Assembly (NCBI RefSeq): GCF_003991225.1
Contig: NZ_JTFC01000031.1
Coordinates: 682,001-746,000 of the forward strand
DNA: 64,000 bases
Direction: 5' to 3'
Source of the DNA: Candidatus Kurthia intestinigallinarum
GTDB lineage: Bacteria; Bacillota; Bacilli; Bacillales_A; Planococcaceae
Under the pieces are notes generated by a model that saw only the letters and a program-made list of their open reading frames with translations, had not been told where the DNA came from and searched no databases. A program made the position numbers and the translations under genes. Shown here in pieces: positions 53,307 through 54,679 of the stretch (position 1 is the stretch's first letter; each line of letters starts with the position of its first letter).

Positions 53307-53552
53307 TTAAGAAAATAAATAACTAAGCTGCTTGGCCCATCCTGTAAATTCCAAGAAAACCCTAGATGCCGCTCCTCCGATGGCAATGCTTAATAGAATT
53401 AAAATGAGTCGCGTTTGAAAGACATGATTTTTTTTGAAAAACTGGCTGTACATTAAACTTTGTAATCCATAAAATGTAATTGCCATGAAAAAGATATGTG
53501 ACAATAAACTGAACAGTGCGTTCTGCCCAATTAATGTAGAGACCTCACCCAT
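53307..53552 (-). CDS. ywzB: DUF1146 small membrane protein YwzB
   Basis: Start at MGEVSTLIGQNALF (53552), nine bases after GGAGG. 81 aa with two membrane segments (HIFFMAITFYGLQSLMY and LILILLSIAIGGAASRVFLEF). This conserved protein lies between the ATP synthase operon and murA in Bacillus; function is unknown. Confidence 0.85.
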   Translation of the reverse strand: MGEVSTLIGQNALFSLLSHIFFMAITFYGLQSLMYSQFFKKNHVFQTRLILILLSIAIGGAASRVFLEFTGWAKQLSYLFS

Positions 53553-53598
53553 ACTACTTAACCTCCAATTCATCATGATTACCTAGTTTAAAAAATAG

Positions 53599-53640
53599 AA
53601 ACTCGACTAATTGCTGCTTAAGACATAGTCGAGTTTTTTT
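53599..53640. terminator. Bidirectional hairpin upstream of ywzB
   Basis: AAACTCGACTA pairs with TAGTCGAGTTT around a 16-base loop, with a T-run on the plus strand and an A/T-rich tract on the other side. Confidence 0.65.
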
Positions 53641-53708
53641 GAGTTTCTTCTATAATATATTCTAATGGATTTGATGTGTTTTTTCGACAGAAAGCTTCGG
53701 AAAGAAAA

Positions 53709-53736: not shown

Positions 53737-53880
53737 GTTTTCCCTCTCTATTACGATGCATTCATTCCTTCATATACATATTCTTTGAGATGGATTTTCC
53801 TGTGGTTAGTTGCTTCTATATAAAGGAAGTTTTTTTGTAGTACGTTAAAAGGTACTGACTGGATCCTAATGCTTTTATAA

Positions 53881-54192
53881 AGGAAGTTCTGCTAAAACCG
53901 CCGCGTCCTTTACAACTTCAATGGAAGGCTAAGGCTCTAGTTTTTTTTCAAGGAAGCTCTGACAGAACGCCACGTCCTGTGGCTTGTCAGAGCTATTCGC
54001 ATCCGGAAGAGGAAGTTCTGCTAAAACCGCCGCATCCCTGCGGCAACGCAGAACGGCTTCCATCCATTTTTCTATGTGGTTCTGCTAAGTTCGCTCCCGT
54101 CCTGGGAGCAACGCAGAACTATTCACGTCCCGAAGAGGAAGTTCTGCTAAAACCGCCGCATCCCTGCGGCAACGCAGAACGGCTTCCATCCA
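53881..54192 (+). ncRNA. Tandem hairpin array with RUCCU-type loops (Bacillaceae-1-like RNA)
   Basis: Four clear hairpins and one decayed unit. Outer stems: AGCTCTGACA/TGTCAGAGCT (53955-53994) and GTTCTGC/GCAGAAC (54015-54054, 54079-54119, 54141-54180). Inner stems and loops: GCCAC-GTCCT-GTGGC, GCCGC-ATCCCT-GCGGC, GCTCCC-GTCCT-GGGAGC, GCCGC-ATCCCT-GCGGC. The inner stem sequences differ but stay paired. Units 1+2 and 3+4 form two copies of a two-hairpin module joined by GAAGAGGAAG linkers; 53881-53927 is a degenerate half copy. The loops match the Bacillaceae-1 motif (two RUCCU loops) as I recall it. The plus strand is the likely transcribed strand, ending at the terminator at 54204. Confidence 0.65.
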
Positions 54193-54203
54193 TGGAAGCC
54201 AAA

Positions 54204-54242
54204 AAAAACGAGTAGATCCCGGCCGGAAATCTACTCGTTTTA
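54204..54242. terminator. Bidirectional terminator of the atp operon and the hairpin array
   Basis: AAAACGAGTAGAT pairs with ATCTACTCGTTTT around CCCGGCCGGAA. The T-run on the minus strand (TTTTTTTT) serves atpC; on the plus strand TTTTATAT follows. Confidence 0.9.

Positions 54243-54259: not shown

Positions 54260-54679
<420 letters not shown>

Follow-up and report, generated by a model that had tools for sequence, protein, structure and literature searches.

An array of Bacillaceae-1 units beside atpC, probably amplified from a dispersed structured DNA repeat

The Bacillaceae-1 RNA motif (RF01690) was described by Weinberg et al. 2010 (PMC2864571), and its discoverers are said to have doubted its strand (PMC4333381). 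Gardner and Eldai 2014 proposed from motif matching that it binds CsrA, the reverse complement of the motif matching the CsrA motif (PMC4333381). Eight copies are listed for B. subtilis (PMC8208703). Structured intergenic repeats of other kinds include Bhal-1, a 74 bp sequence with 36 copies in B. halodurans (PMC2267715), and the REP/REPIN sequences (PMC3116915, PMC3733652). Here we compare with these systems an array from a 64,000-nt stretch of Candidatus Kurthia intestinigallinarum DNA, which is referred to as the window.

The array between the ywzB-like gene and atpC

The array lies at window 53876-54198 (+) and consists of three units scoring above the curated RF01690 gathering cut-off (35 bits, covariance-model search), a degenerate unit and a related hairpin. 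These features and their neighbours are as follows.

53307..53576, minus strand: ywzB-like gene, DUF1146 (Pfam PF06612)
53876..53935, plus strand: degenerate Bacillaceae-1 unit, 5′ half kept (AAGGAAGTTCTGCTAAAACCGCCGCGTCC), 3′ half decayed; direct-repeat family D2
53952..53999, plus strand: long hairpin with a GCCAC-GTCCT-GTGGC tip, a divergent unit (predicted fold, sequence)
54005..54062, plus strand: Bacillaceae-1 unit 1, loop ATCCCT (RF01690, 36.9 bits)
54069..54136, plus strand: Bacillaceae-1 unit 2, with loop GTCCT and inner stem GCTCCC/GGGAGC (RF01690, 42.3 bits; 736069-736136 on contig C175)
54131..54198, plus strand: Bacillaceae-1 unit 3, near-identical to unit 1 (RF01690, 49.5 bits; repeat D1, 95%)
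54205..54241, minus strand: intrinsic terminator of atpC, directly adjoining the array (terminator scan; conserved in the nearest relative, G003)
54260..54667, minus strand: atpC, ATP synthase epsilon subunit (Pfam PF02823 and PF00401)

A sequence-only reading of this DNA had described tandem hairpins with RUCCU-type loops and taken them for a multi-copy form of the Bacillaceae-1 RNA or a relative. The covariance model identifies the array as Bacillaceae-1 with three units at or above the cut-off at this locus, and what that reading described is there, the repeats and the loops as well as the pairing of the inner stems: a block of 80 nt spanning 53988-54067 returns 126 nt further on, at 54114-54193, with 95% identity, and the inner stems GCCGC/GCGGC, GCTCCC/GGGAGC and GCCAC/GTGGC each pair. 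Its description of the loops applies to GTCCT in unit 2, but units 1 and 3 carry six-base variants, ATCCCT and, in the final hairpin of unit 3 (GGCTTCC-ATCCAT-GGAAGCC), ATCCAT. The full units have the outer stem GTTCTGC/GCAGAAC in common, and the degenerate half copy matches RF01690 weakly (53876-53983, 22.1 bits, below the cut-off). The stretch 53949-54200 folds much more stably than dinucleotide shuffles (plus strand, z = -8.2; minus strand, z = -5.9). The sequence-only reading also placed the array where the atp operon ends, which is right as to position, but it begins a few bases past the minus-strand atpC terminator, and because atpC and ywzB are both on the minus strand, the Rfam strand of the array is not the strand that would be read through from the genes here. 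A second terminator-like hairpin lies just upstream of ywzB at window 53598-53641 (AAACTCGACTA...TAGTCGAGTTTTTTT); it is conserved in G003, and its reading direction, on the plus strand, is towards the array.

We compared the orthologous site through AtpC relatives in the genus, leaving out G006, which is masked there. The array is not kept: in three members of the same genus (G005, G001, G002) the atpC-ywzB gap is short and the array is absent, and G003, with an AtpC that is 98% identical, has both the terminator and the ywzB-proximal hairpin but no intact unit. The G003 gap shows weak similarity to the array (alignment score 49 vs 48 for the best of 500 shuffles), which is suggestive of a decayed array remnant.

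Distribution, hosts and orientation of the copies

This genome contains 14 RF01690 matches at 7 places, among them a four-unit array on contig C79 and 2 units in 23S-5S spacers; in array 2 of this genome two copies stand 197 nt apart where G003 has one. Matches occur in 34/61 genomes of relatives at 1 to 53 per genome, and closely related genera differ strongly, from none to dozens of copies. G021 has 55 matches at a looser search setting, some of which form sets of almost identical sequence although they stand at unrelated sites. When named genomes were scanned with a pattern, at least 119 loci were found, and among the matches listed Bacillus, Lentibacillus, Lederbergia, Oceanobacillus, Sporosarcina and similar genera prevail, with a B. 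subtilis strain represented by at least two loci. Kunst et al. in 1997 reportedly found a 190-bp repeat in B. subtilis, which is a candidate for the same element. The loop and internal-loop sequences are conserved over many Bacillales genera. The sequence-only reading had named, among the findings that would count against it, a mobile DNA repeat whose loops are not conserved; the copies do resemble a mobile repeat, but their loops are conserved. Phage and plasmid collections searched with a 67-nt consensus gave no match in either, and phage or plasmid carriage was rejected on that basis. Within the genus, some units are part of a longer element of ~186 nt, which has a conserved extension of its own (L016:7437-7701 and L017:7460-7649 in this genome, L047 in G003); one of these is tandemly duplicated here and single in G003.

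In G021 the unit sits at the centre or apex of longer palindromes, which are imperfect and of two or more types. One such palindromic host is empty at L067:2011-2200, contains the unit one way round at L069-L075 and contains it reversed in L064, and a second empty host was found in G027 (L059:2901-3067). At the host junction the filled form has ~8 nt of the empty form replaced, and comparison of filled with empty hosts revealed no target-site duplication. The filled and empty hosts are direct comparative evidence that the unit is an insertable module. Long imperfect palindromic repeats of the CACATGGAACGGAAGGCGGCG...CGCCTGGAGTGGAATGTGC type occur in different genera (G021 and G027) and are present there without the unit. 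Complementarity of the flanks beyond chance was seen by strict scoring in 16/183 dispersed copies; nesting in large palindromes is therefore rejected as a general rule, and apex placement is documented mainly in G021 and should not be generalised. As for a possible mover, no Y1/IS200 or RAYT transposase lies beside the copies, Y1_Tnp was not found in five copy-rich genomes (G000, the present one, and G012, G017, G020, G030), and no recombinase or other mobile gene recurs next to copies; with no such co-occurrence or linkage, both a Y1/IS200 transposase and a linked mobile gene were rejected as candidates.

The copies have no orientation preference relative to genes: for 98 copies between predicted genes, 26 are co-directional, 28 anti-directional, 29 convergent and 15 divergent. 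Co-orientation with replication was rejected for G021, where strands are mixed by position on both replichores. The copies in rRNA and tRNA operons, by contrast, all lie on the strand of the stable RNA and often abut its mature 5′ end. Between the boxA leader and 16S they are found in G049, G558, G408, Siminovitchia, Lederbergia and two others. Shouchella has them in the 16S-23S spacer, this genus in the 23S-5S spacer, including 7/8 copies of G003, and Gracilibacillus and the B. licheniformis group 2 nt before tRNA-Val. Counted conservatively, these amount to ~8 lineage-level placements, 8/8 in one orientation (binomial p ~0.008, two-sided), a uniformity that suggests a strand-specific effect. 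By position, the rRNA-operon copies must be transcribed. The placements are sporadic, not ancestral: a copy 5′ of 16S occurs in 3/399 genomes of the class and 0/261 of the order, counts on which a general 16S-leader function was rejected; the opposite-orientation control for the 16S leader covered the order. In the 23S-5S spacer of G003 (L316:1569-1697, L320), two rRNA operons have ~125 nt extra between the unit and 5S (GGAGCATACTTCAGTATGTGAGGATG...), which gave no match to Rfam and resembles, by eye, what follows the unit on its 3′ side between tRNA-Asp and tRNA-Phe in Peribacillus saganii (L172).

Paired changes in the stems

That the stems covary, as their perfect pairing despite differing sequences had indicated, is borne out in three helices, in which 13/17 pairs have changes on both sides (covariation score 0.61 vs 0.15 shuffled). 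Among 147 distinct copies, picked by loop sequence and a Watson-Crick-only filter without G.U information, there are 332 double vs 7 single changes from the commonest pair, although the copies are related and the counts are not independent; a SAM riboswitch control from the same taxa gives 102 double vs 29 single changes. The mismatches are skewed in a particular direction. G.U occupies 16 cells and A.C 45 in the three helices, and counted per organism in two nested helices the numbers are 17 and 39 (p = 0.005), the A.C excess being concentrated at the base of the outer stem. The SAM riboswitch has 30 G.U and 2 A.C, for a structure predicted with G.U allowed. The pattern is unusual for a plus-strand RNA helix, for which ordinary selection should produce the opposite. 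The near absence of G.U and the excess of A.C therefore point to pairing kept at the DNA level, or to a functional minus strand, and do not support taking the covariation as a sign of a plus-strand RNA. A putative pairing of the loops with ribosome sites, likewise proposed in the sequence-only reading, is supported by short complementarity and nothing further. The RNA reading of the array is only partly supported.

Interpretation and relation to known systems

We consider it probable, at roughly 0.58, that the array arose by tandem amplification, at this locus, of a structured DNA repeat that is non-coding, dispersed and REP- or MITE-like, and that Rfam models as Bacillaceae-1 RNA. We favour this because copy number is high and erratic, because the orthologous site is empty or without an intact copy, because gene orientation is not respected, because the unit is a discrete cassette at the apex of palindromes that also exist without it, and because the stems change pairwise almost without G.U intermediates. 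It is weakened by the failure to find a transposase or establish a target-site duplication, by loops more conserved across Bacillales genera than a decaying repeat needs, by the single orientation of all rRNA/tRNA-operon copies and by the small share of dispersed copies with complementary flanks. Such a repeat would spread within the chromosome via a single-stranded, hairpin-dependent step, which might favour the tips of hairpins and places where transcripts end, terminators for example, and its arms could be held in Watson-Crick pairing by arm-templated correction or by selection on the folded DNA strand. The 126-nt repeat in the window may come from unequal recombination or slippage. Copies in rRNA and tRNA operons would be carried in the precursor and tolerated in one orientation only, their fixed orientation perhaps reflecting selection against the opposite one. 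The array at the atpC-ywzB locus most likely has no gene-specific role.

More speculatively, and with odds that we place well below even, Bacillaceae-1 may be a transposase-less hairpin cassette that enters the tips of other hairpins and sites beside stable-RNA 5′ ends and whose arms are rewritten pairwise by DNA template switching, so that its covariation would be no evidence of RNA function. In the literature searched, subscription literature aside, no paper was found to describe Bacillaceae-1 as a mobile-like cassette. Covariation is the sequence evidence treated as strongest for a functional RNA; if the idea is true, DNA-level processes can mimic RNA covariation, and comparing double with single changes and G.U with A.C would offer a cheap test for other ‘orphan’ Rfam families. 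The dispersed-repeat behaviour bears on the true nature of RF01690, an uncharacterised ‘RNA’ family.

Other explanations draw on parts of the same evidence. The unit could be a plus-strand structured RNA of stable-RNA precursors, in which the two hairpins guide or insulate processing beside the mature 5′ ends of 16S, 5S and tRNA, and from which the dispersed copies, including those in the window, derive. Its placements 5′ of 16S, in the 16S-23S and 23S-5S spacers and before tRNA-Val, with all of the ~8 lineage placements on the stable-RNA strand, speak for this, but given how sporadic those placements are in the class and order, that the plus strand shows no G.U tolerance and that the majority of copies are distant from stable RNA genes, we regard it as unlikely. 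Closer to the locus itself, the array could act in cis on the atp or ywzB-murA transcripts, for instance as an mRNA 3′-end stabiliser or read-through barrier, as its place directly past the atpC terminator and upstream of ywzB might suggest; at this site, however, relatives conserve the terminator hairpin and not the array, and we find a cis role very improbable.

An RNA of the minus strand that titrates CsrA by binding it via GGA loops would accord with the published reverse-complement match and the doubt over the strand (PMC4333381). Plus-strand A.C is minus-strand G.U, and A.C is the mismatch in excess. In addition, csrA is present in 34/34 element-bearing genomes and 9/9 csrA-less genomes are without the element (hypergeometric 2.7e-4, 61 genomes, phylogeny uncorrected), an association that could be due to phylogeny or a functional link. 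The canonical CsrA hairpin loop is a hexaloop, and the AGGGAU loops of the window, closed by C-G, fit the CsrA consensus, but the usual minus-strand loop, AGGAY, is one base shorter than that hexaloop. GGA is present on the minus strand in 142/206 second loops, whereas ~18% of second loops are RTCGT, with no GGA. Gene context shows no bias to minus-strand transcription and the rRNA copies are transcribed on the opposite strand, so that we think CsrA titration a decidedly poor prospect. The unit has in common with CsrB-type CsrA-titrating RNAs the repeated GGA-containing loops, here on the minus strand, and a host that encodes CsrA in every element-bearing genome sampled; it differs in that its loops are mostly one base short and the second often lacks GGA.

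As a dispersed DNA repeat, the unit resembles REP/REPIN sequences in being a short imperfect hairpin element that is intergenic, single or clustered and erratic in copy number, and some REP/REPIN families, like this one, have no linked transposase. It differs in its greater length (~66 nt, two hairpins), in that no clear GTAG foot is seen, CGTC lying in the loop and not in a foot, and in having no RAYT/Y1 partner. As to the terminal inverted repeats and target-site duplication that mark a MITE, the comparison of empty with filled palindromic hosts showed ~8 nt replaced and no duplication. By description it may also be likened to bcr1, Bhal-1 and other structured Bacillus repeats, which are intergenic, repeated in bacilli and of a similar length class. 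Bacillaceae-1 itself is the closest match: the units score above its cut-off and have its two-hairpin anatomy, internal loop and loop sequences. The family is often near rRNA operons, and this genome has its two 23S-5S spacer copies, whereas the atpC locus is not so placed and instead has three units and degenerate ones in tandem by the atp operon, with hexaloop variants. The evidence gathered here favours a dispersed DNA cassette over a plain sRNA gene.
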